From: Flavipsychrobacter stenotrophus
GTDB taxonomy: Bacteria; Bacteroidota; Bacteroidia; Chitinophagales; Chitinophagaceae
Direction of reading: 5' to 3'
Length of the DNA stretch: 64,000 nucleotides
NCBI RefSeq assembly: GCF_002954265.1
Contig: NZ_PPSL01000003.1
Coordinates: 186,001 to 250,000 of the forward strand
This document shows positions 26,213 to 49,746 of this stretch, piece by piece. The notes beneath the pieces are model-generated. The model saw only the letters and a list, made by a program, of their open reading frames with translations, did no database searches and was not told the DNA's origin. The number at the start of each line of letters is the position of its first letter. Within the stretch, counting starts at the first letter, position 1. The translations under genes and the position numbers were made by a program.

Positions 26213-27544
26213 TTAACCAAACATCTTCTCCATTCCTTGTTTCACTGCCTGCCGATCAACACCAATATAAGGGAGCATTTCCTTGTAGCTCGAATGCCCA
26301 CTGATAGATTGGATCTCTATGTCGGTGAACTTATGTTGTTTAAGCAGAGTGATAAAGGTCTTTCTTCCTACATGCGTTGTAAGAAAATGGTATTTGGGTT
26401 GACATATTTCTCGCTTCGCTTTGCCACTGAAATTTACTTTTGTAGTAGCATCTGTAAGGCCTGCAGCCTGTCCTATTTTTTTAAGGTTCCTATTCGTTAC
26501 TACCGGTGACTGTCGCGGGAAAATATAATCGTCGGCACCAGCCCTATCCATATACTTTTCCAGGATTATTCTTGCACTTTCAACTATAGGAATATACACC
26601 GCCCGGCTCTTATTTCCTTTCTCCTGGTATAATTCCCATTCCATTCCAGAACCACTTTTGATCTTTATATGTCTTTTTCGCAATGCTATTATATCGGAAA
26701 TTCTTTGCCCGGTGTAACACAGGAAAAGGAAGATTTCCTTAGATAATAACAGCCCCTTAGATTCCTCTGGATTATATTTTTCCATTAGCCTGACTTCCTC
26801 AATAGTCAGGAAGATTGGCTCAGAATAATCTCCCTCGCACCTAAACCGCTTAAACTCAGTTGACCGGATGTAATGCTCTGAGTGGTCAAAGCACCATTGC
26901 AAAAATGCTTTTATGTTTTGTATACTTTTTGAAATGGTATTGTTGAGATGCTTCAGCACCCCGATTGAATAAACTCTAAAATCAGTGTAGAACTTCATTG
27001 TTGCTATGTTTTCAAAATTGAGCTCATAGTTTGTCTTTTCAAACGCTTTCAATGATTTCATTGTTGAGTTATATTTAGTGATAGTGCTTGATTTTACCAG
27101 CTGTTCCTTTTCGGCCAGAAATTCATTGTAGACTTCCAAAATGCGCCTACTGTCGACAACGTAGCTGTTGAGGGAGGCTTTCACCATCTGCTGCACGCTG
27201 TCTGGGTTGATCGGCAAATCATTTGTTCGCATGTGTAAGTAATTCTTTTCGCAAGCAGACTTAAATTTATTGAGCAATGTGTTGAGCTCCATAAAATATT
27301 TGTGCTTACGTAGCGGGCAACGCTTGTTATAATCCCATTCTGCAGGCTTAATATTGTGACCAATCGCCACTTTGAAATATTTACCATTGATACTCCAAGA
27401 AAGATAAATACCGGTTTCCTTTGGATAATAGTATTCATCGATATTCACACCGGCATTTCGCTGCTCTTTAAGGGAGCGGTAGTCTACACCTTCTTTAAAG
27501 GTAGTATCAAGGGTAAAATAAAAAATGATTTTCTTCACTGACAA
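26213..27544 (-). CDS. Tyrosine recombinase (integrase) of element 1
   Basis: 443 residues. The N-terminal ~70 residues form the Arm-type DNA-binding domain of Bacteroidota integrases (KKIIFYFTLDTTFKEGVD..., GIYLSWSINGKYFKV). A SAM-like core-binding domain (~130-230) includes VYNEFLAEKEQLVKSSTITK. The catalytic domain has the full set: R281 (CYTGQRISDI), K309 (YQEKGNKSRAVYIP), H391 and R394 (THVGRKTF), H417 (ISGHSS), and nucleophile Y426 (MLPYIGV). It is therefore probably active and should integrate or excise the element. It is the last gene of the unit, 52 bp after the zinc-ribbon gene. It is collinear with the integrase at 44.2-45.5 kb, with catalytic residues at nearly the same positions. 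Confidence 0.93.
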   Translation of the reverse strand: MSVKKIIFYFTLDTTFKEGVDYRSLKEQRNAGVNIDEYYYPKETGIYLSWSINGKYFKVAIGHNIKPAEWDYNKRCPLRKHKYFMELNTLLNKFKSACEKNYLHMRTNDLPINPDSVQQMVKASLNSYVVDSRRILEVYNEFLAEKEQLVKSSTITKYNSTMKSLKAFEKTNYELNFENIATMKFYTDFRVYSIGVLKHLNNTISKSIQNIKAFLQWCFDHSEHYIRSTEFKRFRCEGDYSEPIFLTIEEVRLMEKYNPEESKGLLLSKEIFLFLCYTGQRISDIIALRKRHIKIKSGSGMEWELYQEKGNKSRAVYIPIVESARIILEKYMDRAGADDYIFPRQSPVVTNRNLKKIGQAAGLTDATTKVNFSGKAKREICQPKYHFLTTHVGRKTFITLLKQHKFTDIEIQSISGHSSYKEMLPYIGVDRQAVKQGMEKMFG

Positions 27545-29612: not shown

Positions 29613-29999
29613 TTAACCACAAAATTGATCGTTAAGCCCAAAAACTTTTTCTAAAAATTCTACAGCCTTCTCATACAAGCAGAAAACTTCGCAGCAGCTA
29701 TTCAAGTCGCCCTTCATATGACTTTCAGCAGCTTCTAAAGTGCTATAAATTGCAGGACTATTACCTCCGACAGCAACGTAGAATTTGTCTGTCCATAGGA
29801 CCTGTTTCTTTGCTTTAGCCTTGGTCTTGCGCTTTCGTTTGACCTGATCTGCGTTAAATGCTTTTTCAGCATCCTGCCGATTAGCATACCCTTTATAACT
29901 ACTACAAGGATATCTGTGGACAAGAGGTTCGGTTTCTTCCCAGGTCTTAAAGATGCCTGTTTCGCGGCCTTTAAATACCACATAAAAATTCTTTTTCAT
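29613..29999 (-). CDS. Stand-alone viroplasmin (RNase H1 N-terminal type) domain protein
   Basis: Start chosen at the ATG 29997-29999 (MKKNFYVVFKGRETGIF); an ATG 27 bp upstream is in frame. The first ~50 residues match the caulimovirus-viroplasmin/RNase H1 hybrid-binding domain: KFYVVxxGRxxGIFxTWEE followed by YPxxxYKGYxxxxDAEKAF. A basic linker (KRKRKTKAKAKK) leads to a second, weaker copy: KFYVAVGGNSPAIYSTLEAA. In RNase H1 this domain binds RNA-DNA hybrids. There is no RNase H catalytic part here, so I infer a nucleic-acid binding accessory for the element's replication. Its stop lies 26 bp before the replication gene's ATG (or overlaps its alternative TTG start). Confidence 0.75.
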   Translation of the reverse strand: MKKNFYVVFKGRETGIFKTWEETEPLVHRYPCSSYKGYANRQDAEKAFNADQVKRKRKTKAKAKKQVLWTDKFYVAVGGNSPAIYSTLEAAESHMKGDLNSCCEVFCLYEKAVEFLEKVFGLNDQFCG

Positions 30000-30038
30000 A
30001 TTTCTTTTTTTAATTGTAAAAAACATTAGGTTTAGGGA

Positions 30039-30353
30039 TTATTTGGTGGTGGGCTTCTGCTGCTCCTTTTTGTATCTTAATATTTCAGATGCCAAAACAA
30101 ATCTCCGGCCCGAGTAAAGGAAAGAAAGAAGTTCACCGGAATTGATGAGTTTATAGACGGAACTTCGCGTTTTTAAGTGCAATATTTTAGCCGCCTCTGG
30201 AATGGTAAGTTCATTATCAACAAGAGAATGCTTATCACAGTTAGTCAACAATAGTTTCTCAATCCGCTCAAGGTGTGTCGCGAGTATCTCTACTGCATAT
30301 GGTAAATTGTCAAAAGTGATTTTTATATCACTTCCTGAAATAGGTTCTATCAT
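30039..30353 (-). CDS. Excisionase/HTH DNA-binding protein
   Basis: 104 residues. After an N-terminal helical part, LTIPEAAKILHLKTRSSVYKL followed by INSGELLSFLYSGRRFVL is the MerR-like winged HTH of the excisionase (Xis/AlpA-type) family: 'eAAklLgvs...vykli..G.lp....g.r'. It likely directs excision together with the recombinase or regulates the element. It is the first gene of the unit, with a dyad-rich region upstream where it could bind. Confidence 0.85.
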   Translation of the reverse strand: MIEPISGSDIKITFDNLPYAVEILATHLERIEKLLLTNCDKHSLVDNELTIPEAAKILHLKTRSSVYKLINSGELLSFLYSGRRFVLASEILRYKKEQQKPTTK

Positions 30354-30489
30354 TAAGAGTCTTTAAAGTGTTACTAATTTTGTTGCCGAACTGACATTTG
30401 GTAGCGTACTAACGGAGGAGGAAGACCCAGAAATGGTATAATTCTCAGGGTTTTCAAATTTCTTAACTGGTGATTGGGCACACAGTTTC

Positions 30490-30521
30490 TAATGCTAATG
30501 TTGAGGTCCATACTAGCATTA
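30490..30521. repeat. 8-bp inverted repeat TAATGCTA/TAGCATTA
   Basis: Perfect arms at 30490-30497 and 30514-30521 with a 16-bp spacer, 137 bp upstream of the HTH start. Possible operator or hairpin. Confidence 0.5.
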
Positions 30522-30639
30522 TCCCATTACCCCTCTAACGGTTACATTTACTTGGGGGTACACACTTAAAAAATGTCTTTTTTTTGTTAATCTCAGGTGT
30601 AATACACCAAATGATTCATATATAATACCTAGTTTTTTG

Positions 30640-30662
30640 CCATATAAGATTTAATTATATGG
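30640..30662. repeat. 8-bp inverted repeat CCATATAA/TTATATGG
   Basis: Perfect arms with a 7-bp spacer in AT-rich DNA, near the tandem dyads at 30717-30748. Possible recombinase core or operator. Confidence 0.55.
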
Positions 30663-30716
30663 TTAAACTTCGTTATGCGTAGCTGGTTTTTTCGCCATGA
30701 ATTTTGATTAAATAGC

Positions 30717-30748
30717 ACATATATTATGTTAAATTACATATATTATGT
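30717..30748. repeat. Tandem quasi-palindromic direct repeat
   Basis: ACATATATTATGT occurs twice (30717-30729 and 30736-30748), 19 bp apart start to start. Each copy is nearly palindromic (ACATA-n3-TATGT). Spacing close to two helical turns suggests paired protein-binding sites (iterons, operators or recombinase sites). Confidence 0.65.
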
Positions 30749-30754
30749 ACTGCG

Positions 30755-30895
30755 CAGGACTTTACATAGTTGGCCATGGATACAAACTGACGCTGGGTCA
30801 AATAAATGTTTTGCTTTCTATTGCTATAGAAATTTGTTTCTCGCAATATGTCTTCGGAATTTGAAAATATCTGGATGTTCGCCTCTACCCACAAC
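30755..30895. repeat. Degenerate ~140-bp direct repeat, copy A
   Basis: It aligns in the same orientation with 43390-43540 at roughly 70-75% identity by eye; shared blocks include GTTTTGCT, TATTGCTATAG, TGAAAAT and CCACAA. Translations on either strand are also similar between the copies, so a decayed gene pair is possible. Confidence 0.6.
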
Positions 30896-31306
30896 AATTG
30901 CATTTTATGAAATAGCGCTTTCATAAATCTTTCGTATAATTCGCGGAAAATAATAATGACGATCTAGCAATGGTTAAAGAAATGGCAATTCAAGATAAAC
31001 ATCGCGCACACCAATCTTCCCTACGAGGAAAATTACCAAATTTGCTGGCACCGTGTCTAAATGGGCTTTCCACCATATGTTTCGGGCCCTACTTAGGCTA
31101 CAACCTCACTATTTTAACGCCACCGAACAAAGGGTCTTCTGAACAAATATTATGGAGCAACCCGGTAGCAGCGAACTAAACAGATGTAGGAACCTCACAC
31201 AACTGGCATTCATAATTATTGGATAGATTCAAAGTAGTAAAACTTGCAAGCATAAAATATTGATGCTAATTTTAATATACCTATCAATATCCCTAATTGT
31301 TATGTG

Positions 31307-31314
31307 TATATTTG
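31307..31314 (+). promoter_or_regulatory. Candidate -7 box for the giant repeat gene
   Basis: TATATTTG matches TAnnTTTG exactly, 31 bp before the ATG at 31345. A -33 TTTG is not clear. Confidence 0.45.
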
Positions 31315-31344
31315 CGCCTCCCATAAAACGATCTATACCTAACT

Positions 31345-34300
31345 ATGGCCAAGTTCATCTTCAGAACCGTGTTGTTGCTATTTGTGCTTTTGCAATTATG
31401 TATTTGCAGAACTCAGGCAGCTGTCCCTGTATTTGTCAATGGGTCAACGGCCACACTTTCTGTCTGTAAAAATTCGATAGACAATGTCATTGATTCACTT
31501 TTGTCTGTTGCTTACTCTGGCGTTGGAGAAACGATAACTTGGACAATCCAGGCACCTCCAACCCACGGGTCATTGTATAACTTGCCCTTTAGTCTTATTT
31601 CTACCGGCAGCAATTTGGCCACGATTAATATTAAATATACACCCATGCCCAGTTATGTGGGCATGGATACTTTTAGAATAAAAGTGAACAGTCCTATTGA
31701 CTCAGGGGTCCTTATTGTATATACTAACGTTCGTGAAACAGCACCACCTGTCGCTGTGCATAATGTAGAATACTGTCAATATACTGCCGATACTGCTCTT
31801 TTTGCCACAGGGTCTTCACTTCTTTGGTATACTTCTAGCACCAGCGGGTTAGGTTCAACTCTAACGCCAATACCGTCTACTGCAGTTGTAGGTGCCACAC
31901 GCTACTACGTATCACAAACACTAAATGGATGCGAAAGTTTACGGGATTCTGCCTTTGTTGTCATAAGAAATTTGCCCCTTGTTTCCGTTAGCCCTACAAT
32001 GGATACAATTTGCAGTGGACAATCAACAATTTTTCACGCAACAGGCGGCATTACATATAGCTGGTCACCATCATCAGGGTTGAATTTGACTTCCGGAGGA
32101 GTCGTTTCAGCCAGTCCAAACTTATCACAAACATATTATGTAACAGGATCAGACTCATTTGGATGCAGCAACATGACGAGTTCTTTTGTGCTTGTTAACC
32201 CTACCCCGGAGGAAATTGTCATAACAGGGTTACAACAGGTAACTTGCATTGGAGTCCAAACAACTTTAACTGATGGTACAGCCGGGGGTACCTGGTCTGG
32301 TAGCAATGACGCTGTAGCAGCAATAAATAGCATTACTGGGACTGTTATTGGTGTTGATACCGGCGAGGTGACCTTTAGATATACTTTACCTGCTACTGGC
32401 TGCTATAGAACGACAAATATGTCAGTTCATCCGTATGATTATCACCTCCCGCCTGTTTCGACATGTATCGGAACTCCCAAGTACGTAATCGATTCTTACA
32501 CAGGTTATCAATGGGGCCAAGATCTTGGGAATAGTTTAGGGATACACTACTCAAATTATGTGTACTCAACCGGAGGCGGGTGTCAGGTGTCATTTGTTGT
32601 AACGGTATTTCCTTACCCAAGCCGTATTGCGGGAGACTCTATTCTATGTATTGGCGACACGTCAACTCTACACAATGACTCACTAGGTACTTGGATTTCA
32701 AATAACTCATCGGTTGCGACAATTAGCCCTGCTGGACTAGTGACAGGGTTATCGGCCGGAACAGCAATAGTTACTTTTACACCAGTGACAAACTGTCCGC
32801 GCATAATACACATTACCGTTAACCCATTACCGACGATTAATGTTACACCAACAACATCATCGATATGCTTTGGGCAAAGCGCGGGTATGTTTGCCAATAT
32901 TGGGCTAATCTATACATGGTCACCAGCGACAAGCCTAAGTAATTCCACAGGAACTTCCGTAACGGCAACACCGTCGGTAACAACTACCTATACTGTTATT
33001 GGCACTAATACAAGTACAGGGTGCTCAAATTCAACAATTAGAACGATAGGCGTCAATTCATTACCATCAGTTAATGTCACATCTTCTGCGTCTACAGTTT
33101 GCGCTGGCACCAATACGACCTTGTCGGCTACCGGCACATTAAACTACATATGGTCACCGGCAACTGCATTATCCTCAACCATTGGAACAACGGTGCAAGC
33201 TCATCCGAGTGTGACAACTGTATATACTGTAACGGGTTCCGATATTAACGGTTGTTCAAATAAAGCGACAGTTGGCATTACGGCACTCGCGCTCCCAACA
33301 TTATCTATAAGCCCTACCTCAGTAACAATTTGCACTGGCCAAGCAACGACGTTGGCTGCTTTTGGAGCAGACAGCTATAGTTGGTCGCCAAGTGCATCCT
33401 TGTCGTCATCTACAGCGGCAACTATTACAGCCATACCCGCAAGTAGTACAACATATATATTGACTGGCGTAGGGACCAACGGATGCGCGAATACTATTAA
33501 TAGAGTCGTTGTCGTCAATCCTACACCTACAATAAATCCAATAAGCAACATCGTTACATGTAATGGCTCGACGGTATCCTTATCGCCTTTTTCTGGTACA
33601 GCAGCAAGCTATAATTGGGTTAACTCTAACTCTGCTATCGGGATTTCCTCTTCTGGCGTAGGTAATATCCCTACCTTTTCTAGCGTAAATAATGGAACAA
33701 CCGTACTCACCGCAACGATTACAGTAACACCATCATCGGGTGTATGTGTTGGAAGCTCCATCAGTTTTACCATAACGGTCAAACCATCCCCCACAGTTAC
33801 AGCTATTTCAAATCAAAATGTATGCAATGGTGCAGTATCAGTTCCTATATTATTTAGCGGTTCTGCAATTAGTGGAACTCCAACTACTTATAATTGGGTA
33901 AACAGCAATAGTACCATAGGGCTTGCAACAAGCGGATCCGGAGATATCGGCATTTATTCCGCTGTAGACACAAGTAGTGTAGCTATTGTGTCAATGGTTA
34001 CCGTTACTCCGGTTGCAGATGGTTGCAGTGGAGTTTCACAAAACTTTACTATCACAGTACATCCCTCACCAACCGTGTCAGTCCCATCTAACCAGAGTTT
34101 GTGTAATGGAAGTTTGACAACGCTGATTTCTATTTCTGGTACAGTACCTGGCACTGCTTATAGTTGGTCTTGTTCCGATAGCGCAATAGGTGTTGCCGGA
34201 TCAGGAATTGGAAATATCACATCGTTTACCACAATAAATTCGGGAAGTACCCCATAACTTCAATCTTTACAGTCACTCCCAATGCTGATGGGTGTCCAGG

Positions 34301-37300
34301 GACGCAACAATTATTTTCTATTACGGTAAAGCCAACCCCCGTTTTATCGCCAATTTCGAGTCAATCAGCTTGCAAAAACACACTAACAACACCGATAACA
34401 TTCAGCAGTTCTGTCGCGCTAACAACGTATACATGGTCTAATAGTAATAATAATATTGGATTGGCTAATTCCGGTGCAAGTAATATTGATACATTCACAA
34501 CTACTAACAACACTACACTTCCAGTAACAGCCACTATTACAGTTACTCCATTTGCAAATGGTTGCTTAGGTAACCCATTGAATTTCAATTTTACTGTTAA
34601 CCCTTTGCCAACCGTATCACTAATAACCAACCAAACGATCTGCTACAATACATCAACAGCAGTTATTGCCTTTACAGGGTCAGTCGTTGGTACTACCTAT
34701 AACTGGGCAAATAGCAATAGCAGCATAGGTCTGGCATCAACCGGCACAGGTAATATCGCATCATTCACTGGGATCAACAGCAGTAGTGTCACTGTAACAT
34801 CAACCATTACAGTTATACCTACTATAAATGGTTGTAACGGCGCATCACGTAGCTTTGCGATAGCCGTTACTCCTACACCGTCAATTGATCCAATTGTCGA
34901 CCAGGCGATATGTAAAAATACAGCTACTGCGCCTGTTAACTTCACTGGTTCTGTACCCGGCGCGAGTTATACATGGACGAATAGCAATGCCGGAATCGGG
35001 TTGAGTTCAAGCGGAACTGGTAATATTCTGCCGTTTACGAGTTTGAATAGTGGCAGTGTAGCTGCCACAGCCACTATTACCGTCACTCCAGCACTGGGTA
35101 GCTGTAGTGGAATGCCAGGGATATTTACTTTGACTGTCAACCCCGCGCCGACGATTAGTGCCGTTACTAACCAGGTACTGTGCAATACTTTATTAAGTAC
35201 GCCGATCACATTTGGAGGATCACCCATAAGTGGAGTGCCAACAACTTACAATTGGGTGAGTAATAATGGAAGTATCGGTATGCCGACATCAGGATCGGGC
35301 GATATTGGTGTTTTTACAGCGACAAATACAGGAACGGTTGCCATCACATCTACCGTAACTGTTACACCTGCTGCAAATGGATGTAATGGTTCGTCTAGCA
35401 GCTTTAATATAACTGTTAAACCTACGCCGTCTCTTACCCCGGTATCTAACGTAGCAGTATGTAATGGTACAATCGTGTCAATTCCGTTTACAAGCACTGT
35501 AATTGGTACTACTTACAGTTGGGTAAACAACAACAATAGTATTGGATTGGTATCAACCGGTACAGGCAACATTGGGCCGTTCTCCGCGACAAACTCAGGT
35601 AGCACTACAATCACCTCGACAATTACGGTTACACCCGCGGCCAACGGATGTATTGGTTCGTCACAGATCTTTACAATTACTGTTGCGCCAACAACTACTG
35701 TTTCTACAGTTGTAAACCAAGCAGTATGCAATAATGCATCAACTACACCAATTACTTTTACTGGAGGTGTTAGTGGTACTGTGTATAATTGGTCAAATAG
35801 TAACGGCAGCATTGGACTTGCTACATCAGGAACAGGGGATATTACCTCATTTACTGCGCTCAACAATGGGAGTGTTGCAGTAACGGCAACTATAACAGTT
35901 ACACCGATAGCTAACAGTTGTACAGGTGTTCCACAAACATTTACAATTACTGTTAAACCAACACCGACTGTAAATCACTTGCCTGACCAGGTTGTGTGTA
36001 ATAATACATTGACAGCAGCAACTTTCGCAGGTGCGGTTTCTGGTACAGTATACAGCTGGACAAATAGTAGCGGAGCGATTGGGCTTGCAACAACAGGAAC
36101 GGGGAATATTGGATCTTTCACAACAATTAATACTGATACTGTCTTAGCAACAGCAATAGTATCTATTACACCTTCGGCAAACGGCTGTATAGGCATTACT
36201 GACTTTTTTACAATAACGGTAAAGCCCTCGCCAACTTTACTGCCTGTTGCTAATCAAACATTATGTAACACACAATCTAGTACACCTATTTTGTTTAGTG
36301 GGATAGCTATCAATGGTTTTTCGACTACATATAATTGGATTAATAACAACAGCAGCATTGGTTTACCAGGATCAGGAGCTGGAGGCATAAGTACGTTTGT
36401 TGCTGTAAATACTGGTAGTACGCCTCTTGTGTCAACTGTCACGGTGACACCGGTGGCTGACGGATGTAATGGAGCGGCTCAGATTTTTACTATTACTGCT
36501 AAGCCATCCCCAACAGTATTTTCAAATGCGGGGCAGACGGTTTGTAATAGCACTATGTCCTCTAATATACTATTCAATGGTACCCCTGTCTCAGGTTTCC
36601 CAACGACATATAATTGGTCAAATAGCAATGCAAGCATAGGTCTTGCCTCCACAGGTACAGGGAATATTGCACCATTTATTTCTGTAAATACTACTTCGAT
36701 ACCAGTTACTTCAACCATTACTGTAACGCCATCTGCAAATGGATGCAGTGGTTTGCCACAAACAGTTTCGATAGTGGTAAATCCAACTCCGACAGTAGCT
36801 CCTGTTAGTAGCCAGACTGTTTGTAATGGAACATTTGATACTGCAATTGTATTCAGCGGCAATGTAAGCGGCACAACTTACAATTGGTCAAATAGTAATA
36901 GTAGTATAGGGCTTGCTTCAACAGGAACAGGAGGTATTGCTTCATTTATTGTAGTTAATCCTGGTAGCGTGGCAGTAACATCTACAATCACCGTAACACC
37001 AGGTGCAAATACATGTATTGGAACAAGCCAGAATTTTACGATAGCTGTTAAGCCTGCTCCTACAGTTTTGCCTATTTCAAATCAATCCATTTGTAACAGT
37101 AATGTGACATCGTCTGTTATTTTTAATGGAACCTCGGTTAGTGGATCTTCTACCATTTATAATTGGATAAACAACGATACAGGAATCGGACTGTCCATGT
37201 CCGGGAGCGACAGTATCGGGTCATTTACTACCACTAATGTGACAAGTTCGGCAATTACCTCCACAATTACAGTTACTCCTATAGGTAACGGCTGCATAGG

Positions 37301-40300
37301 TGGTTCTCAGCATTTTACTATCACAGTAAAACCAACACCAGCAGTATTGAGTGTGGCAGGACAAACAGTATGCAATAACACTAATGCTTCAACAATAGTA
37401 TTTAATGGGACGGTAAGCGGAACCATCTATAATTGGTCTAACAGCAATAGCAGTATTGGATTAGCTTCATCCGGAACTGGGAATATCGCCTCGTTTACAG
37501 GAATAAACAGCAGTAGTGTAGCCGTAGCATCAACAGTAATTGTAACCCCTGTCGCGAATAGCTGCCAGGGTTTACCCCAGAGTTTCTCCTTAACAATAAA
37601 ACCATCCCCAACTGTTTTTCCAATTACCAGCCAGTCAGTATGTAATGGGGCAACGACTACCTTAATATCATTTAACGGGTCTCCCATAAGTGGATTTCCT
37701 ACTGTTTACAATTGGGCTAATAACAACAATACTACTGGTATTCCAGCAATTGGCTCTGGTGATATATTGGCTTTTAGCGGGTCGAATTCAGGAAATGTTG
37801 CTGCGGTTTCAACTATTACAGTCACTCCAGTAGCAGATCTTTGCAGCGGTAGCCCTCTTAATTTTACGATAACCGTAAATCCCACACCTGATGTGGTGCC
37901 ATTGACAAGCCAATCTATTTGCAATGGAACAACTACGACTCCTATCATATTTGGAGGTGGAGTTACAGGTACGGTCTATAATTGGGTAAGTAGCAACCCA
38001 TCTATCGGGTTGGCGACAACTGGGGCGGGGAACATAGCTGGATTTACTGGTATCAACACCACAAGTGTTATAGCTGTGTCTACGGTTACAGTTACACCTT
38101 TAGCAAATTTATGCAATGGCAGTAGTCAAATCTTTACAATAGCCGTCAAGCCAACCCCAGATGTAAATCCAGTTTCAAATCAGACAATATGCAATGGTGC
38201 TTCGACAACAAATGTCGCTTTCGGTGGTAGTGTTAGTGGCACAGTTTACAATTGGGTAAACAACAATGGTAGCATTGGTCTGTCAACATCAGGTATGGGT
38301 AACATCTTTCCTTTCTCTGGTATAAATGTCGGGACAACAAGTACAATTTCAACAATTACAGTTACTCCATTTGCAAATGGATGTAATGGCCCCGCGCAGA
38401 ATTTTACTATAAGGGTAAACCCAACACCAGGTATTTCCCCAGTTTCAGGTCAGTCTGTATGTAACGGATCCCCGACCACATTAGTGTCATTCAGCAGCAA
38501 TGTTGCAGGCGCATCATATAGCTGGGTAAATAATGATCCGACTATTGGCTTGACTTCAACAGGCTCCGGGTCTATATCGCCATTCTCCGTCGTAAATGGT
38601 GGAAGCGCTATGGTTACGGCTGTCATAACTGTCACACCTACAGCCAATCTCTGCAATGGAAGCTCGACGACTTTTACAATTGCAGTTAAACCCACACCAT
38701 CTGTGTCTCCTGTTTCAGGGCAGATAATTTGCAATGGAGGCACGACAACATTGGTCGCCTTCGGTGGACCGGTAAGCGGTACTGTTTATAACTGGGTCAA
38801 TAACACTTCTGGTATGGGATTGGCAACTTCAGGAACTGGAAATATATCATCTTTTGTAACTAATAATACCGGGACTGTTGCTGTTACTTCGACTATTACG
38901 GTTACTCCTGCTGCGAATGGATGTATGGGCAATTTTCAAAACTTCAATATCACTGTAAATCCAACGCCAATCGTATTTCCTCTAACCAGTCAGACTGTAT
39001 GCAATACCGATCATGTCGCATCTACTTTATTTGGCGGTTCTGTTGCAGGTACAGTTTACAATTGGATCAACAGCGACACTAGTATAGGAATTGGTGCTGC
39101 AAGTGTAGGCAATATACCTGCGTTTACTGCTTCTAATAGTGGAAATGTTGCTGTTGTCGCGACAATAAACACAACCCCATTTGCAAATGGATGTAACGGT
39201 GCATCTAATAGCTTCAATATAACAGTCAACCCTACACCCTCAGTAGCCGCGGTGCCAGACCAAAGTGTTTGTAATCAGCTCAATACCTCAGCAATTATTT
39301 TCGGAGGTTCGTTAGTTAGCGGTACAACGTATAATTGGAATAATAGTAACAACACTATAGGGTTAGCGTCTAATGGCATAGGGAATATAGGGTCGTTTTC
39401 AGCCATTAATAGCAGTTCCGTTGGAGTTACATCAACTATAACTGTAGCTCCATCTGCAAATGGTTGTGTAGGCAGTTCTGCTATTTTTGTAATTACTATT
39501 AATCCAACGCCTGCAACTATAACAGGTGATACTACTGTCTGCTTTGGTTTGACATCTTTACTCTCAGATATTTCAATTGGCGGTAGCTGGAGCACGAGTA
39601 ATAGTTCAATTGCGTCAATTAGTCCTGTTGGTCTTGTATCCGCTTTATCAACTGGGATGGATACGATCACTTATACTTTACCGACAGGTTGTCTTACAAG
39701 AACTACGTTATTAGTAAATCCGTTGCCTAATGCGATTACAGGTACTGACTCTGTATGCGTTGGGGCAAGTGTTGGATGGGCAAATACAACGTCGGGTGGT
39801 ATATGGAGTAGTGCCAATCCCTCTATAGCAACTGTTAGTACTTCAGGATTAGTTTTTGGTGTGCATTCAGGAATTGATACTATTGTTTATACTATTTCAA
39901 ATACCGGTTGCCAGGTCGTTGATCTGATTAAAGTCAATCCGTTGCCAGTGCCTATTTTTGGTAGTTCATCTGCGTGCGTGAATTCACCGGTAGTGCTTAC
40001 TGACTCTTCAGGCGCAGTGATGTATGTCGTTACTCCTGTCACACCCGGAATACTTACAATTACACTTTCTAATTTATCAGCCTGCAGTAGTCATATTTCA
40101 GTTTTGGTTAATCCATTACCTCAATCTATCATAGGCTCAACAGGATTGTGTCTTGGTACTACATCTCAATTGTCAGATAGTGTTTCAGGTGGGTTTTGGA
40201 GCAGCAGTGATACAACTGTGGCAACCATCGGCAGTAATGGTTTAGTATATGCTAGAGCAGTGGGTAATTCAACAATTTCTTATACATTGTCCTCAGGTTG

Positions 40301-43091
40301 TTATCGGACAGCTACGGTTACAGTAAATAACTTGTTTATAATAAGTGGTGTGCAACTGATACATCCGGTAACTTGTAATGGTATAAGCGGGGCTATAAAA
40401 ATAATGGGCGTTGGAAGCTCGATCTCCTACAACGTCAATTACCTTAAAAATGGCATCCCCCATGTAACGGTAAAGACATCAGACGCTTCCGGTGATCTGC
40501 TTCTTGATAGCTTAACAGCAGGTAATTATACAAACATTACTGTCTCTTTAGGTGGATGTACTTCAAACTACGTTTCAGGAATACTCGTAGATCCCCCTAA
40601 TCCAGCGATCCCGCATTTGTCTACAAACTCACCTGTCTGCTTAGGTTCAATATTAAATTTGAGCTCATCAGATACTACCGTGGGCGTATCATTTAATTGG
40701 AGCGGTCCTGGAGGTTACACATCGACGCTTCAAAACACCGCAATAAATCCAGTTTCGTTATCCGACTCGGGATATTATAAAGTTAGGGCCGGACTAAATA
40801 ATTGTTTCTCCTCTGATAGCGTAAGTGTTCACGTGCTTTCTATACCTAATGGTTCGTCTATTACAGGAAGTCAATTGGTATGCCAATTTGCAACAGCGAC
40901 ACTTTTGGATTCTGTATCAGGGGGTACCTGGTCAGTTAAGAATAACCATGCTGCAATTAATAGCTCAGGAGTTTTGACAGGTATTTCTTATGGGTTAGAT
41001 ACAGCAGTTTACATACTCTCCAATATCTGTGGTAGTGACACAAATTCATTAGAGGTCTTTATAGATCGAATACCCGTGATTGACAGCATTACTGGCCCAG
41101 CATTCGTTTGTGTTGGCTCTTCTATCAGTGTGGCAGATATTACTCCTGGTGGAACCTGGCTGATAACCAACACAAATGCTGCAATCAATAGCGCTGGTCT
41201 GGTGAGCGGCACAATGCCAGGAGCAGATACAATTCAGTACTTAATTACAAATACCTGCGGATCAGATACAGTTCACAAATCACTTGCGGTAATTGCTTTG
41301 CCTGTTGCTGGTATTATTACTGGGCCGCCTGATGTATGTATAGGTTCGAGTATATCGTTGAGTGATGCTGCGATTGGTGGTATCTGGAGCATTAGTAATT
41401 TAAGCATTGCAACGATTAATTCCGTTGGTGTCTTGCATGGGCTATCATTTGGGAATATTATAATTCACTACACTGTAACAAACGTATGTGGTGTTGCAGA
41501 TGTAACTGATACCGTCATTGTTAAACAGCTTCCTTATGCTGGATCAATATCTGGTCCAAGTAGCATTTGTGTCGGTGCCTCGGCGATTTTGCATAGTACG
41601 GTCTTAGGTGGAAGCTGGAATATCACATCCAGTGGAGTAATCAATATCAGTACTTCTGGATTGGGCTCGGATAGTGTTAAGGTAGATGGTATCAACGCAG
41701 GCACGTCAATTGTCAGATATGTTGTGTCGAATTCATGCGGATATGATACCGCAACATTTTATGTTACGGTTCATCCTATTCCGTCATTGAGCAGCACGTT
41801 GAACCCTCCCAGTGTTTGTAGCGGTTCACCATTTAATTATTTGCCGACTAGCGGTAACCCAGGTGCCTCTTATTCATGGAATAGATCGACAGCACCACTC
41901 ATCGCGAATGTTGCAGGGTATGGTGTTGATAGTATTAATGAAACACTGGTTCTAAATGGGGCTTTACCTACTACTGTAATATATAACGTGACTGTTACTT
42001 CTTTGGGTTGCAGTAATACCGAGCCTGTTTCAGTAATCGTTAATCCTATACCAGCTTTGAACAGTAGCTTGAACATTACTACATGTTCAGATGTTCCTGT
42101 GAATTACCTTGCAAATAGTGCTACGCCTTTTACTTCTTTCATTTGGTCACGGGCAAGTGTTCTGGGGATATTACCTACAGTAGGGAGTGGTACTAATTAT
42201 ATATCAGAGAGCCAGACAAATACCACAACCGCTGGCATATTTGTAGTGTATACATTTACTCTATCTGCAGCTGGCTGTACTTCAACTCAAAACGTCAATG
42301 TACTAGTAGAAACTCAGGCGCCAGCTCCTCCAAAGATTACTACAATGTCGCCTTCATACTTGTGTACAGGAACAATGTACCAGAATTTTGGTGCAGCTTC
42401 AATTCCTCCATCCGGAATAAAATATACCTGGACAGCAACTGGGGCAGAAGTATGGGCTACCGGTATTGATGATCAATATTGCCTGGTTAACTTTAAGTAT
42501 CCTGGCTTCACTTGGGTTACCCTTTCTTCGTCATATACAGGATATACTTGTAAAACAAGAGATTCATTTGTAGTACTTGTTGGCGATTACACGTCAATGT
42601 CACCTGAAGTGATCTACCATCATCCTGATTTTGTTTGCTTGTTTAATCCGGAATGGACCTATCAGTGGGGTTATGACGATGTGGGTACATTAGACTCGTC
42701 ACTTTTGGCAGGTGAAACAAATCAAAACTATTACAACGATAACCCTGACTTTACAAACAAGTATTACTGGGTTATCACTACATATAAGGACTGCATGCAG
42801 AAGACCTACTTAAGAGTGCCAACATTAGTAAATGATATTAGTTCAGGTAAGGTAGGTAAAATGGTAATATCGCCTAACCCAAGTAACGGTCAGTTTAAAG
42901 TAAAACTGACATCGGACTTTACAGAAAATGGACAGTTAGTAGTCTCTGATCTTTTAGGCCGGGAAGTATTGAAAAGGGAGATTAGGACAAACAGCACAAT
43001 AAGTGTTGACCTTAATGAAACGGGAGTATTTATGCTATCAATTGTAACAGCGCATGGTCGCGCCACGGAAAAAATAATTGTTCAACTATAG
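31345..43091 (+). CDS. Giant T9SS-exported adhesin-like protein (~3,915 residues), split by a one-base frameshift
   Basis: The frame from 31345 stops at TAA 34255-34257, in the middle of a repeat. The next frame is open directly from there to 43091 and continues the same repeat (INSGSTP then ITSIFTVTPNADGC). One extra base in the C4 tract 34250-34253 restores a single frame, and total length plus one is divisible by three. Order: signal peptide; a cadherin-like unit (PTHGSL...GMDTFRIKV); an Ig-like unit; GGxWS-type Ig units; 22 tandem PKD/Ig-like repeats (33523-39506); about a dozen more GGxW Ig-like units; and a type A sorting domain (VISPNPSNGQF...EKIIVQL). It is likely a long surface fibre for adhesion. 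If the shift is genuine, only a secreted 970-residue stub without sorting domain is made. Confidence 0.85.
33523..39506 (+). repeat. Array of 22 tandem ~90-residue PKD/Ig-like repeats inside the giant gene
   Basis: Each unit follows the pattern PTPxVxPVSxQxVCN...F-G-VSGTxYNWxNxN, then SIGLAxxGTGNIxxF, then STITVTPxANGCxG...FTITVKP. Most are 88-90 residues. Units 2, 7, 11, 12, 14 and 16 carry a short insertion (ISGxPTTYNW class). The average is 90.7 residues over 22 units. DNA between units is well diverged, so this is a protein-level repeat. Confidence 0.9.
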
Positions 43092-43748: not shown

Positions 43749-44174
43749 CTATACAGCCATGATATACCAATCTATCCAATGGCCACTCTGGTAAAAGTTG
43801 ATCCAATTATTTGATTCAGATAATTCAAAGTATCTCTTTTCAATTATTTCTTTTCTACAGAGGCTTACCAGTATCTCCCTAAGCAGATATTGCTCACATT
43901 CCCTCATAAGGTGGGCATACATAAAGAGATTGTCCATTATCCCTTTCTTTTTCTCCAGCTGCATTAATTTTACACGCTCATATAGCTTCGCCTCATAGCC
44001 GACTAAGCTATATGAAGAGAAGTCAATGTTGGGCGCTCCTATTTTAAACTTATATCCTGAGTTCTTTAATTCTGTAATAAGCTGCTTGAACTTATAGTAG
44101 TCCTGCTTGGCAGTGGTAGTAATTATGTCGTGGTATCGAGTATTCAGCTCCTCAATTTTCGCTAGTAGGTTCAT
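43749..44174 (-). CDS. Small helical protein downstream of integrase 2, unknown family
   Basis: 141 residues, predicted mostly helical and charged (KQDYYKFKQLITELKNSGYK; GIMDNLFMYAHLMRECEQYL), no signal peptide. Its ATG lies 23 bp inside the end of the integrase gene, so the two are probably translated together. Position suggests a role in integration or a cargo function; no motif supports a specific call. Confidence 0.6.
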   Translation of the reverse strand: MNLLAKIEELNTRYHDIITTTAKQDYYKFKQLITELKNSGYKFKIGAPNIDFSSYSLVGYEAKLYERVKLMQLEKKKGIMDNLFMYAHLMRECEQYLLREILVSLCRKEIIEKRYFELSESNNWINFYQSGHWIDWYIMAV

Positions 44175-45507
44175 TTTTATTCCATTTTGCTTTTAAATCT
44201 TTGGTTAGGTTGGCCTTGTCATTGCCAATGTAAGGGGTCATCTGCTTAACAGACGTGTGGCCGGTGATGGCTTTTAATTGTTCAGGGCGCATACCCCATT
44301 GCAAGCTCAGGGAGATGAATGTTTTTCTTGCGGTGTGGGTACCAATGAAGCTATACTTGGGTTGGGTCAATTGTATGCGCTCCTTGCCGGAGTAGTTGAC
44401 CTTTGTGATAACAGTATCGATCTTAACCTCCTTGGCTATCTTCTTAATATTCCTGTTGACAATTACTGCGCACTGCCCGGCGAACACTATGTCATTATCA
44501 TTTATGTCCTTGCAGTACCTGTCTAATATTCCCTCTGCAATGTCCAGGATGGGAATATAGATAGGGTACTTCTTGTTTCCTTTCTGTTGATACAGCACCC
44601 ATTCTTTTGATGGCCCGTTTTCAATCAGTCTTATGTCCTGCTTCCTTAGGCTTAGTATGTCGCCAATCCTCTGGCCGGTATAGCACTGGAACACAAAAAT
44701 GTCTCTTGATTTTGCTTGTCCTGAACTCGATCCTTTATAACTTTCAAATTTAGCAAGCTCACTTGCATTAAGGTAGATCGGCTCTGGCTCATCCGTCTCG
44801 CATTTGAACCTCTTGTACTCATTATTGGTTACGTATTTCTTAGGGTGGATCTCTGCCCATGCAAGGAATGTCTTTATGTTTCTCAGGTTCTTGCCAATGG
44901 TATTATTCAGGTGTTTCTGTACTTCTATTGAATAAGTCCTATAGTCCAGGTAGAATTTCATAGTCATTTTTTCAAACGACAAGGCATAGTTCTTGCTCTC
45001 AAAACCTTCAAGGGACTTTCTTGTCGAGTTGTACTTGGTGATAGTCGCGCTTTTTGTTCCTTTGGCCTTCTCTTGCATGAACTCTTCAAATACTTTCCAG
45101 AAGTTGATTTTCTCTACCGGCTTTGCTTTCTCTCCAATGAATGCTCCTACCATTATCTTCTTAATCACTTTGGGAGTGATCGGGCTGTCATTGGTCAACA
45201 GTATGAGGTAGTCCCGTTCAATCTTCAATTTCGCCTTCTGCAAGAATGCATTGAACTCTAGCCTGTTCGGATATTTCCTTGATGGTTCTTGCAAGTTGAA
45301 ATCCCAATCTGCAGGCCTTATTTTCAAGCCGGTATTGATCTTTACATATACTGTGTTTACAGTACATCCGATATAGATAGAAGTAGGATTAGGGTTATAA
45401 AAACTGTCGATATTCTTGCCTGCTTTCCGTTTACGTTTTGCTGCAATTATATCAACTCCCTTTTGAAATGTTGAATCCAATAGGAAATAGAAAATTATTT
45501 TTCTCAT
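44152..45507 (-). CDS. Tyrosine recombinase (integrase) of module 2
   Basis: Start chosen at the ATG 45505-45507 (MRKIIFYFLLDSTFQKGVD), which lines up with the start of the integrase at 26-27.5 kb. An in-frame ATG at 45717 would add 70 residues. The 451-residue product has the Arm-type N-terminal domain, core-binding domain and full catalytic set: R280 (CYTGQRIGDI), K309 (YQQKGNKKYPIYIP), H391 and R394 (THTARKTF), H417 (ITGHTS), Y426 (MTPYIGN). It is collinear with the element 1 enzyme but clearly diverged. It overlaps the next gene by 23 bp. Confidence 0.92.
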   Translation of the reverse strand: MRKIIFYFLLDSTFQKGVDIIAAKRKRKAGKNIDSFYNPNPTSIYIGCTVNTVYVKINTGLKIRPADWDFNLQEPSRKYPNRLEFNAFLQKAKLKIERDYLILLTNDSPITPKVIKKIMVGAFIGEKAKPVEKINFWKVFEEFMQEKAKGTKSATITKYNSTRKSLEGFESKNYALSFEKMTMKFYLDYRTYSIEVQKHLNNTIGKNLRNIKTFLAWAEIHPKKYVTNNEYKRFKCETDEPEPIYLNASELAKFESYKGSSSGQAKSRDIFVFQCYTGQRIGDILSLRKQDIRLIENGPSKEWVLYQQKGNKKYPIYIPILDIAEGILDRYCKDINDNDIVFAGQCAVIVNRNIKKIAKEVKIDTVITKVNYSGKERIQLTQPKYSFIGTHTARKTFISLSLQWGMRPEQLKAITGHTSVKQMTPYIGNDKANLTKDLKAKWNKNEPTSEN

Positions 45508-45532
45508 TGTTTGCTGCTGAATTGTGAGGGTC

Positions 45533-45636
45533 GTTTGTCCTTCGGTATTGAGCGTTTGTCTTCCGGTATATCCACCGGTTTTTGTCTTTTGTACACCTGT
45601 TAAATCACCTGCGATTGGCGTTTGTCTTTCGGTATT
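45533..45636. repeat. Three copies of a 17-bp repeat ahead of integrase 2
   Basis: GTTTGTCTTTCGGTATT-like units at 45533-45549, 45554-45570 and 45620-45636. They lie 26-130 bp upstream of the chosen integrase start. Spacings (21 and 66) are multiples of three and the frame stays open to 45717, so they may be recombinase or regulator sites, or may code a repetitive N-terminal extension with (E/G)RQT-type units. Confidence 0.7.
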
Positions 45637-45778
45637 ATATCCCGTTTGGCGAACGTTATGAGGGGAATTAAAATTTCTAATTGCGTAGCCCATATCAAGG
45701 TCATTATTTACCCTCAATTTTAAAAATGAATTATGCTACATACTGCATAGTCTTGCAGCAGCATGTAGCATATTCATA

Positions 45779-46633
45779 TTAGGGGTTCTCTTCCGTATCG
45801 AGGGTGTTTGCCGGTAGCGGCTTCGCTTTAGGGATACCAAGGGTTTTTATTGTAACCCCTTCTGCATTCCCAGCAATTAGCATTACGCGTTCATTGCTTT
45901 TTACAAATTGGTATTTGACCAGGTACTCCCACATAAAGGTTATCAGCTGTTGGTGGTGCGTTTCATTTTTAGCGATGATGTATATTCCCGATTGGATAAC
46001 CTCGTCAACTAGCATTATAACATTTTGTCCTAAATCGGCTACCAGTTCCTTTACCCGGTCTTCATGGGTGTATTGATAGTTTGTAACCTGCTGCTGAACC
46101 ATTACAACACTATCTGCGCTTATCATCTCCAGCACCTGCTTGACCTCGCTTGATTTGATAAATGAAGACCCTTTGCCTGTCGGTAGCTTTTTGCATGATG
46201 GCATCACGCCGGTGTCCGGATCTAAGAAGATGATTTGATTAACAGTGCTGTCGATCAGTGGGGTCAACAGCTCGAAATATGCCGCCCTTTCTTTGTGGTT
46301 GAAATAGTTGATATAACCGGTGCGGAAATGACCAGCTTTTGTATTATTGCGACCGGCCGTAACCTTTGATACAATCCCCTGCGACTTAAACAATTCGCTG
46401 ATATCACTTACTGCGGTATCGTCGCCGTAAAAATTGGACTTCATTAATTCAAGCAGTTCTTCATTCTGGCTACCCAGTCTAAAATTCGTAGCGTTTCGAT
46501 CACCCTTGTTACGCGTCAATGGCTCTGTAACCATGGATACATACCATATGGGAAATTCGAAGTGCAGGGCTGTTTTTATCAGGGCATCATATTTTGTCAG
46601 GCAGGATGCATTGCCAAGAAATCTGTTATTCAT
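45779..46633 (-). CDS. Unknown protein with possible Rossmann/methyltransferase-like core (FLDPDTG)
   Basis: 284 residues, no signal peptide. The head NRFLGNASCLTKYDALIKTAL and the core IIFLDPDTGVMPSC, followed by a Gly/Lys-rich GKGSSFIKSSEV segment and SVVMVQQQ, resemble a widespread uncharacterised bacterial family with 'FLDPDNG...KH.kysEl...VVYQH'. The DPDTG stretch sits where motif IV of class I methyltransferases would be, but no SAM-binding glycine motif is obvious, so this is inference. It may be cargo of the module, for instance a defence-type gene, which cannot be decided here. A dyad lies ~90 bp upstream of its start. Confidence 0.55.
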   Translation of the reverse strand: MNNRFLGNASCLTKYDALIKTALHFEFPIWYVSMVTEPLTRNKGDRNATNFRLGSQNEELLELMKSNFYGDDTAVSDISELFKSQGIVSKVTAGRNNTKAGHFRTGYINYFNHKERAAYFELLTPLIDSTVNQIIFLDPDTGVMPSCKKLPTGKGSSFIKSSEVKQVLEMISADSVVMVQQQVTNYQYTHEDRVKELVADLGQNVIMLVDEVIQSGIYIIAKNETHHQQLITFMWEYLVKYQFVKSNERVMLIAGNAEGVTIKTLGIPKAKPLPANTLDTEENP

Positions 46634-46719
46634 TTTGTTGTTGATTTGGGGATTAATATTTGTTTGCTTTGGGTGTGCTTTGATGGCATAGCAGGAGGGG
46701 GCAAGGCTAATAAAATCAA

Positions 46720-46751
46720 AAACCGTTTGGCGGTTGGCCTACAAACGGTTT
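46720..46751. repeat. 10-bp perfect inverted repeat with 12-bp spacer
   Basis: AAACCGTTTG (46720-46729) and CAAACGGTTT (46742-46751), ~90 bp upstream of the 284-residue gene. It could be its operator. It has the same geometry as the dyad at 26116-26149. Confidence 0.65.
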
Positions 46752-46906
46752 GGTGAGAAATATAGATGGTGCCTGGGCAACATCGGCAATAATAACATTG
46801 GGTAAACATCGATATATTTTGATTGTTTCTTCTACGGTACAAAAAAAATACACGGAGCTTAACCGAACAAGTATTGGCATCCGGTGGGCTGGTTGAGGTA
46901 AATAGT

Positions 46907-47048
46907 GCCGGTTTTAAGAAGCTATTATTCTTTTGGCTAGGGACATCGGAGCGTGCTTTCGCCTTACTCAAATACCTGGAGGACAAGGAAACACCACAGA
47001 AAAGCCAAGAAGGCATATTCGGAGCTTCGTGGATATATTAAAACCGGC
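46907..47048. repeat. Long dyad with 11-bp perfect arms
   Basis: GCCGGTTTTAA (46907-46917) pairs with TTAAAACCGGC (47038-47048). Shorter complementary patches continue inside (GAAGCT/AGCTTC, TTGGCT/AGCCAA). A ~140-nt stem-loop is possible. A 72-codon plus-strand frame here (46823-47041) has no support. Confidence 0.5.
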
Positions 47049-47061
47049 TACAGAGATGGCG

Positions 47062-47087
47062 ATATAATTTCCTGCAGGAAATTATAT
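47062..47087. repeat. 26-bp perfect palindrome
   Basis: The sequence from 47062 to 47087, centred on CCTGCAGG, is its own reverse complement over all 26 bases. It is further enclosed by AACCGG (47042-47047) and CCGGTT (47093-47098). Candidate operator, resolvase or recombinase site. Confidence 0.8.
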
Positions 47088-47200
47088 ATTGTCCGGTTAA
47101 CCAAGGCTTATTATCTTTATAGCGTAACCAAACCACTCAAACTATACGGCTTCGGAAAAATAAACTACATATAAAGAGATAGCGAAATTTACTGTCCCCA

Positions 47201-47312
47201 CCTCGACAAACCACCAAAATTTTAAAAGTACCGGGAATAGTAGGATTCCGCGCCCCCAAGGGCGTGGGCTTCCTGCATTCTGGGTACAAGGGACTTGGTG
47301 GTTCCTTCGAGG
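47201..47312. ncRNA. Candidate structured RNA or structured DNA site with five nested stems
   Basis: Nested pairing by eye: CCTCGA 47201-47206 with 47307-47312; ACCACCAA 47210-47217 with 47295-47302; GTACCGGGAAT 47228-47238 with 47277-47287 (one mismatch, one G-U); AGGA 47242-47245 with 47271-47274; and a CCGCGCCC/GGGCGTGG hairpin around a CCAA loop (47248-47267). No open frame fits. It lies 220 bp before the lipoprotein gene. It may be an RNA, a leader or a recombination site; strand is unknown. Confidence 0.45.
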
Positions 47313-47322
47313 TCAGGTACAG

Positions 47323-47381
47323 AGAGGTTCCACGCTCCTTTATTTACCTAAACACACAAACAACAGCCATTCGGAACCTCT
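47323..47381. repeat. 9-bp perfect inverted repeat next to the structured element
   Basis: AGAGGTTCC (47323-47331) and GGAACCTCT (47373-47381) with a 41-nt A/C-rich loop, immediately after the nested structure. Confidence 0.55.
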
Positions 47382-47531
47382 GGCATCACCACCCACGATG
47401 AGGTATGCATGCTCATTCAAAGAGATAGTTAACCCAGCCAATAATTCCCCACCCTTCACCGGCACTCACTTCCGACAAGTGAATTTATACCCTGTATCAA
47501 ATATCTCGTAAAACCACCAAATAATAAGAAA

Positions 47532-48086
47532 ATGAAGAAAATTTCAATTCTGATAGCCACGGCCATCACACTATCCGCATGCTCTGGAAACAAAGATTCA
47601 AACGGCCAAGATAATGCTCCTGCACCACCTGAGCCAATGCAAACATCTGCACCTGCGCCAGCTACCTCCAGCAGTGACATTGTTATTTCCCATAAGGACA
47701 CCGGTAAAACTGCAAATGTTTTATTTCTGGTAAAGAACATTGTTGAGCCGCCACTCGATCGCAGCAAATCTTTTGGGCATGAAAATGCTAACAACCCGGA
47801 AGACAATGAAAAATACATTGCAGTTCAGGTGTGGGTCAAGAATGTTTCAAATAAGGAAGAAACTATAAGCCAAGATGAATTCAAGATAGTTGACCAATCA
47901 GACGCAGAGTTTGCAGAGCATTCCGGATTTACAGAACATAGGAAAAAGCCAATCCTTTTTAATGAAGCGGCAAATGGGGTAACTCTTAAACCAAACCAGT
48001 CTGCATCAGGTTGGATCACATTCACGACGGATATCAAAGCCAAAGCCAAGAAGATTGTTTATTCAAACGTAACTGTAAACCTCTAA
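47532..48086 (+). CDS. DUF4352-like lipoprotein
   Basis: 184 residues. A lipoprotein signal ends LSAC (Cys17) and is followed by a Pro/Ala/Ser-rich linker (~25-50). The C-terminal domain has KYIAVQVWVKNVSNKEETIS, FKIVDQSDAEF and PNQSASGWITFTTD, the strand pattern of the DUF4352 immunoglobulin-like family found on bacterial lipoproteins. It is likely lipid-anchored and exposed to the periplasm or surface; the binding partner is unknown. It is 11 bp before the MORN-like gene and probably forms an operon with it. Confidence 0.8.
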   Translation: MKKISILIATAITLSACSGNKDSNGQDNAPAPPEPMQTSAPAPATSSSDIVISHKDTGKTANVLFLVKNIVEPPLDRSKSFGHENANNPEDNEKYIAVQVWVKNVSNKEETISQDEFKIVDQSDAEFAEHSGFTEHRKKPILFNEAANGVTLKPNQSASGWITFTTDIKAKAKKIVYSNVTVNL

Positions 48087-48097
48087 AAATTAATTCA

Positions 48098-49636
48098 ATG
48101 AAGAAGTTCTTATTTATAGTGGCTATTGTAGCCACCGGCCATAGTATTGGCTATAGCCAGCAGCACATTACAACATATTACGACCCATACAAGAAGTTTA
48201 AAGAAGAGGATTATTTTCTGGATAATAATGCGCAGATGCACGGGAAATATACCTCCTATTTTAGGGATGGTTCATTCAAACTTGTCTTAACTTATATACA
48301 TGGCAAAGTCAATGGTAAGGGTATCACCTATTACTTCGATGGCGGATCAAGGGGGATTGCGTCAATAGCCAACTATAAAGATGATGAACAAGATGGCCTA
48401 CAACAATATTATTTTGATAATGCTCCAGAGCCATCGGTGGAGGGTCATAAACCGTATGTGGTTGTAGAAGAATTATATCAAGGTGGAAGTATTACGTGGC
48501 GGAAAATGTATGATTTTGAAAATGGCAAACGGTTTCTAGCTAAACACGAGTTAATTGCCCAAGGTATAACAAAAGGGTATCTACCCAATGGCCACCAATA
48601 CTACCAAATTGCCGTAGATGGGGTAAACTTCCAGGATGGAAGTAGTAACACCAACAAAATTTGGTTTATGGCTAAGGACGGGAAGAAAAATGGTTTATAC
48701 AAGGAATGGTTTAGAAATGGTCAGATAGCGGATTCCTGTTACTACCTGAATGATTTACAAGAAGGCGTTGAAACGGGTTGGTATGATAATGGCGGGAAGA
48801 GATTGCGTTGTAGCTATGTCGGCGGGAAGAAAAGTGGAATTGAAACAGCTTGGCATATTAATGGGGCATTAGAATTCTCGGCAAATTATACCAATGGGAA
48901 AATTCAGGGGAGAGTTGATGTCTTGGATCCTAGCGGTGTTTTAATAAGTTCCGAAAACTATATCGAAGGCGATCGACAGTTATCGAACAGTGATGTCCAC
49001 AGAAGTATCGACCTCATTAGAAACAGTGACTATTCTCGAGCTAATAAGATGTTGGCTCTAGTGGAAAATGCCGGTATTCTAGGATATGATTCTGCAGTAG
49101 TGGCACTTGGTCTGTTCATGGACTACTATATAATTGACCATTTTGGCTATTCGGAAAACCTCATATTCTGGATAATGGCTCATCACCCTACGAAGCTAAC
49201 TGCTAATGACTATATCAAGTATAGCAACTATCTTAAACGAAACGACAAATATGACCCAAGTTCAGTGCTAGATTCTGCAATCAAGAATGTCCCAGACGAC
49301 CCGCGAATCCAGTTCCTATATGCTCATAACCGTCACGCATTTAGCATTGCAAACAGATATAACGACGACTCGTACAAATTTTATGAAATATGGATGTCTC
49401 ATTTAGATAATGGAGATGAAAAAGTTGGGCTATTGGAAGCTAAGGGTGTGATTATGGTACACGACTTTAATTTGCTGAAAAATACAAATTGCAACACCGA
49501 AGAGTCAAAACGTGCAACTCAAAAAATAAAAAGTGATCTCCAACCCTTTAATAAACTAAATGTTTATACGGATGATATCATAAAGATTATAAAGGACTAC
49601 GAAGATGGCTGCAAGTTTGAAATAGCACCCCGGTAA
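48098..49636 (+). CDS. Secreted MORN-variant (YwqK-like) repeat protein
   Basis: Start chosen at the ATG 48098, 11 bp after the lipoprotein stop, because it gives a signal peptide (MKKFLFIVAIVATGHSIGYSQ); the longer open frame would overlap the lipoprotein gene. The first ~300 residues contain about six MORN-variant units of the form 'GxYxxWFxNGQIxxxxYYxxGxxxG' (GKYTSYFRDGSFKLVLTY; GLYKEWFRNGQIADSCYY; GVETGWYDNGGKRLRC; GIETAWHINGALEFSANY). The remaining ~200 residues are helical, without a recognised family. Such proteins are often called YwqK-type antitoxins, but with a signal peptide and no toxin neighbour here, that role is doubtful. Confidence 0.8.
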   Translation: MKKFLFIVAIVATGHSIGYSQQHITTYYDPYKKFKEEDYFLDNNAQMHGKYTSYFRDGSFKLVLTYIHGKVNGKGITYYFDGGSRGIASIANYKDDEQDGLQQYYFDNAPEPSVEGHKPYVVVEELYQGGSITWRKMYDFENGKRFLAKHELIAQGITKGYLPNGHQYYQIAVDGVNFQDGSSNTNKIWFMAKDGKKNGLYKEWFRNGQIADSCYYLNDLQEGVETGWYDNGGKRLRCSYVGGKKSGIETAWHINGALEFSANYTNGKIQGRVDVLDPSGVLISSENYIEGDRQLSNSDVHRSIDLIRNSDYSRANKMLALVENAGILGYDSAVVALGLFMDYYIIDHFGYSENLIFWIMAHHPTKLTANDYIKYSNYLKRNDKYDPSSVLDSAIKNVPDDPRIQFLYAHNRHAFSIANRYNDDSYKFYEIWMSHLDNGDEKVGLLEAKGVIMVHDFNLLKNTNCNTEESKRATQKIKSDLQPFNKLNVYTDDIIKIIKDYEDGCKFEIAPR

Positions 49637-49653
49637 TCAGTTTACAATACTCA

Positions 49654-49726
49654 GAGGCCAATATAGCACCAGAAACCTAAGTGTAGTACAAGTACAGGTC
49701 GAAGAGGTTATATTGGCCTCATTTTT
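49654..49726 (+). terminator. Terminator between convergent genes
   Basis: Perfect 12-bp arms GAGGCCAATATA (49654-49665) and TATATTGGCCTC (49709-49720) with a 43-nt loop, followed by ATTTTT on the plus strand. It lies between the stops of the MORN-like gene and the giant minus-strand gene. Confidence 0.7.
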
Positions 49727-49746
49727 CTCTACGGCGATATCCGGTT

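Follow-up and report, generated by a model that had tools for sequence, protein, structure and literature searches.

Genes for bacterial surface proteins can be switched on and off by slippage in simple sequence repeats, and a survey of phase-variable genes in meningococci counted homopolymers from 6 repeats upwards and noted one variable C5/C6 tract shorter than this limit (PMC5084427). Slippage of RNA polymerase grows exponentially with the length of the run (PMC5574713). For frameshifts that are validated by homology and occur as singletons, the authors of GeneTack expect that most are sequencing errors (PMC3711429). Here, we compare with these systems a giant repeat gene of Flavipsychrobacter stenotrophus whose reading frame is broken at a short C run. 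The window is the whole stretch of DNA analysed, 64,000 nucleotides in length (contig NZ_PPSL01000003.1, positions 186,001 to 250,000 of the forward strand), and all coordinates refer to it unless another contig is named. The features of the gene are as follows:

31345..34257 (+): 5' frame with the signal peptide, the N-terminal region and the first Ig/PKD-like repeats, ended after 970 aa by a premature TAA
31345..31422 (+): apparent Sec signal peptide MAKFIFRTVLLLFVLLQLCICRTQAA, assigned by eye from the sequence rather than with a predictor
34249..34257 (+): lesion with the codons ACC CCA TAA, lacking one base in comparison with the paralogue
34254..43091 (+): 3' frame (-1) with the remaining PKD-like repeats and the C-terminal part (2,945 codons)
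42867..43082 (+): type A T9SS sorting domain (PF18962 match at residues 2872-2943 of P0002, the second-frame protein; TIGR04183)

One giant repeat gene in two frames

The first frame starts with the ATG at 31345 and is closed in the middle of a repeat by the TAA at 34255-34257, shortly after a run of four C at 34250-34253 (codons AGT ACC CCA TAA). The second open frame, displaced by -1, comprises 2,945 codons with zero internal stops. A -1 step at the site gives a joined product of 3,915 aa whose sole stop is terminal, and after addition of one base the frame measures 11,748 nt. The second frame has coding character right from its first codons, with a hexamer log-likelihood of +103 to +120 ahead of its first ATG (120 in a first survey and 103 in a larger one), which far exceeds that of the other adjacent different-frame pairs in the survey.

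The same genome contains a paralogue (G000:C18:6552-18305, minus strand) that encodes 3,917 aa in a single frame. The joined protein aligns to it across the join, collinear from end to end, and because this collinearity extends over the full length of an unbroken protein the split does not reflect a chance neighbourhood of two frames. Both genes have the same architecture, length, collinear repeats and T9SS tail; the paralogue differs in being unbroken, in the sequence directly upstream and in its N-terminal part, with an identity to the joined protein of just 39-49% over the first ~790 residues and of 62-95% beyond. In a same-genus homologue (G010:C175) the frame is open through the break site and runs off the contig end. 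The C-terminal 193 residues, used as a query, returned eleven matches within the same genome and further ones elsewhere in the family, and none of these tail matches contained a stop codon.

Ig-like Pfam matches were found in the first frame, and PKD_5 (PF19406) scored above the cut-off in the second (170.6 bits in P0002, compared with 167.4 bits in the paralogue); the repeats are spaced by ~90 residues. Por_Secre_tail (PF18962, 29.7 bits, cut-off 27) matched in the -1 frame only, as did TIGR04183 (33.5 bits, cut-off 23), which confirms a type A T9SS tail. With regard to the features of a T9SS substrate, the C-terminal sorting domain is present and a Sec signal peptide in the same frame is absent, the TAA at 34255 separating the two; in the paralogue, signal peptide and T9SS tail share one frame. 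Judged from its sequence, the joined gene is predicted to encode one 3,915-residue Bacteroidota surface protein in which a Sec signal is followed by PKD/Ig-like repeats of ~90 residues in tandem and then by a type A T9SS tail.

The preliminary description had proposed a repeat gene split by a one-base shift, which addition of one base would turn into a single frame of this length from signal peptide to T9SS sorting domain, and the frames, the joined length and the unbroken collinear paralogue bear this out. Its view that the first frame halts within a repeat which the second resumes agrees with the alignment and the hexamer signal, and its reading of the first product as a 970-residue stub devoid of a sorting domain is supported by the confinement of the tail matches to the -1 frame. 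The first ATG of the second frame had been placed at 34461, which is in fact a TTG; the first ATG lies at 35112.

Upstream region, flanking integrases and divergence of the paralogue

About 1 kb of non-coding DNA (30353-31345) precedes the giant gene and contains TATATTTG at 31307-31314, which agrees with the Bacteroidota -7 motif TAnnTTTG. Over the 120 bases ahead of the gene's start there is no evident resemblance to the upstream region of the paralogue. Tyrosine recombinases (Phage_integrase, Arm-DNA-bind_5) are encoded on both sides of the gene, at 26213-27544 (-) and 44152-45717 (-), and genes with HTH_17 and Cauli_VI/RNase H1 N-terminal domains (29613-30353) lie beside one of them. The region may thus be a site of repeated mobile-element insertion. 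Searches for inverted repeats and, between the integrases on either side of the gene, for att-like direct repeats returned short, chance-like matches only, none of them convincing, and an invertible promoter was rejected on the shortness of the inverted repeats; no tRNA that could serve as integration target was found within the window.

The divergence between the two giant genes (31345-43091 versus G000:C18:6552-18305) is very uneven: synonymous change is saturated over the first ~1,300 codons, and dS amounts to 0.3-0.9 thereafter. This pattern suggests that the C-terminal two thirds have undergone gene conversion or recombination.

The break site, its age and other disrupted genes

By homology the missing base is placed within 34249-34254, where '...NSGST' pairs with '...NSGVT' of the paralogue before the break and 'ITSIFTVTPN' with 'VTSTITVTPN' after it. 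The C run is absent from the site in both homologues (ACA GTT GTT and GCA GTT GTT). In the sister repeats the damaged codon is mostly Ala (GCN) and never CCC, so lengthening the C4 by one base captures the loss in only one of several possible ways: the lost base need not have been a C, and the C4 may have arisen through the deletion instead of causing it. The tract is nothing special, since the gene contains 15 C4, 4 C5, 14 G4 and 2 G5 runs, i.e. 19 C runs of 4-5 bases.

Downstream of the site, comparison with the paralogue gave a dS of 0.70 and a dN/dS of 0.13 over 2,945 codons with zero stops, from which it follows that purifying selection acted on both copies during most of the time since they separated. 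According to our calculation a random substitution in this stretch would generate a stop codon in ~3.2% of cases, and the complete absence of stops limits neutral substitutions since the break to at most ~93, or ~1% (95% level), a bound that is valid only if selection ceased at the break. Hence the break either happened very recently, is not real or has no effect; its recency follows if the gene is no longer in use. As in a recent pseudogene, a disabling lesion is combined with intact homologues and zero further decay.

Disrupted genes were surveyed in 1.14 Mb, corresponding to 21% of the genome. The survey returned the present gene, a dynamin-like GTPase gene with a frameshift, a giant gene with SprB repeats and a TAG, and an RHS-like out-of-frame join; four other rows were translated and proved to be ordinary neighbouring genes, and most of the remaining ones are low-scoring same-frame pairs that we took to be antisense shadows of repeat genes, not each of them checked. 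The load of disrupted genes in the sampled 21% is low and ordinary. The SprB-repeat T9SS gene (L138:6355-13530, minus strand; G000:C13, about 44355-51530) carries a single in-frame TAG (L138 9681-9679) where its sister repeats have Trp; apart from this stop both halves are open, and a Por_Secre_tail closes the second. In the dynamin-like GTPase gene, which has a DUF4365 N-terminus (L126:4896-7194, minus strand; G000:C14, about 1004896-1007194), the apparent frameshift is located near L126:6306. The out-of-frame join in the large RHS/YD-repeat-like gene, recognised by eye without a family search (L037:about 11745, minus strand; G000:C15, about 181744), lies 4 kb left of the window, and its 3' frame resumes immediately.

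Explanations for the break and comparison with known systems

We consider it probable that an ordinary frameshift recently hit one of two paralogous giant surface-protein genes. In its favour, singleton lesions of a similar kind occur elsewhere in the genome, in the SprB-repeat T9SS gene (TAG) and in the dynamin-like GTPase gene (frameshift). Translation would end after 970 residues owing to a net loss of one base that occurred recently within 34249-34254. The stub would enter the periplasm and, because the sorting domain is missing, would not be displayed on the surface. The downstream 2,945 codons, having neither a signal peptide nor a properly placed start, would not be expected to be made. 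On this account the lesion would exist in the living strain, the stub would presumably be inert and the intact G000:C18 gene may cover the function. An objection comes from PMC3711429, a study of genomes published to about 2013, by which homology-validated singleton frameshifts are expected to be mostly sequencing errors. Because of this expectation, a consensus or assembly error, with the strain carrying an intact 3,915-residue gene, keeps a substantial though clearly smaller share of our confidence; the lesion is a singleton, and the zero decay downstream at a dN/dS of 0.13 would likewise be explained. Several observations speak against an error. The only SSU rRNA match lies on a 5.9-kb contig, the mark of a short-read assembly that collapses rRNA operons, and indels in C4 are rare in short-read data. 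The longest exact repeat inside the gene measures 26 bp, and the site is unique in the sampled genome, where no stretch of it above 14 bp recurs. A misjoin at a repeat is therefore unlikely, and the 26-bp maximum also led us to reject a collapse of repeats during assembly. Finally, just one other clear single-site frameshift was seen in the 1.14 Mb.

The remaining explanations all retain far less probability. Slippage in the C tract that toggles the full-length protein, the on/off phase switch considered in the preliminary description, would suit a surface-protein gene with a preserved downstream frame; the C4 is below the 6-repeat homopolymer cut-off (PMC5084427), counts among the gene's 19 C runs of 4-5 bases and is missing from the site in both homologues, and the sister repeats suggest that the original codon was not CCC. 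We regard such a switch as highly improbable, and give equally little credence to a full protein that is still made from this allele through some unrecognised recoding at CCA_TAA or through flipping at a high rate despite the short run. A shade less plausible again is recoding by -1 ribosomal frameshifting at CCA_TAA or by transcription slippage. The downstream frame is conserved, and a Pro-tRNA on CCA could slip back by one base and pair with CCC while the stop occupies the A site. Yet ACC CCA TAA makes no slippery heptamer of the type X XXY YYZ, a tract of 4 bases offers little room for slippage of RNA polymerase, and in both the paralogue and the G010 homologue the frame continues across the site with other codons. 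A stimulatory RNA structure was rejected, as the RNA downstream folds less stably than shuffled sequences (z +1.7). Programmed -1 frameshifting thus lacks its heptamer and stimulatory structure here, as well as conservation of the site in homologues. Equally remote is an old pseudogene or a pair of separate genes: two open frames would fit either, whereas the collinear single-frame paralogue, the coding signal that precedes any start in the second frame and 8.8 kb free of other lesions contradict both.

The two halves should be annotated as one disrupted gene. Under the favoured recent frameshift, the locus would be a clean case of a freshly disabled giant T9SS surface protein beside an intact collinear twin, and it cautions against taking short C runs for phase switches. 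It resembles the homopolymer phase-variable surface genes of Neisseria (PMC5084427) in that the frame of a surface gene is broken at a C run, whereas it differs in the length of the run at the break, 4 as opposed to the 6 or more repeats of a simple-sequence-repeat phase-variable gene, and in that the run is unconserved in homologues. With the GeneTack singletons (PMC3711429) it shares a homology-validated frameshift and homologues that are not shifted at the same place; nothing separates the present case from that class, whose members are expected in the paper to be either errors or recent indels.
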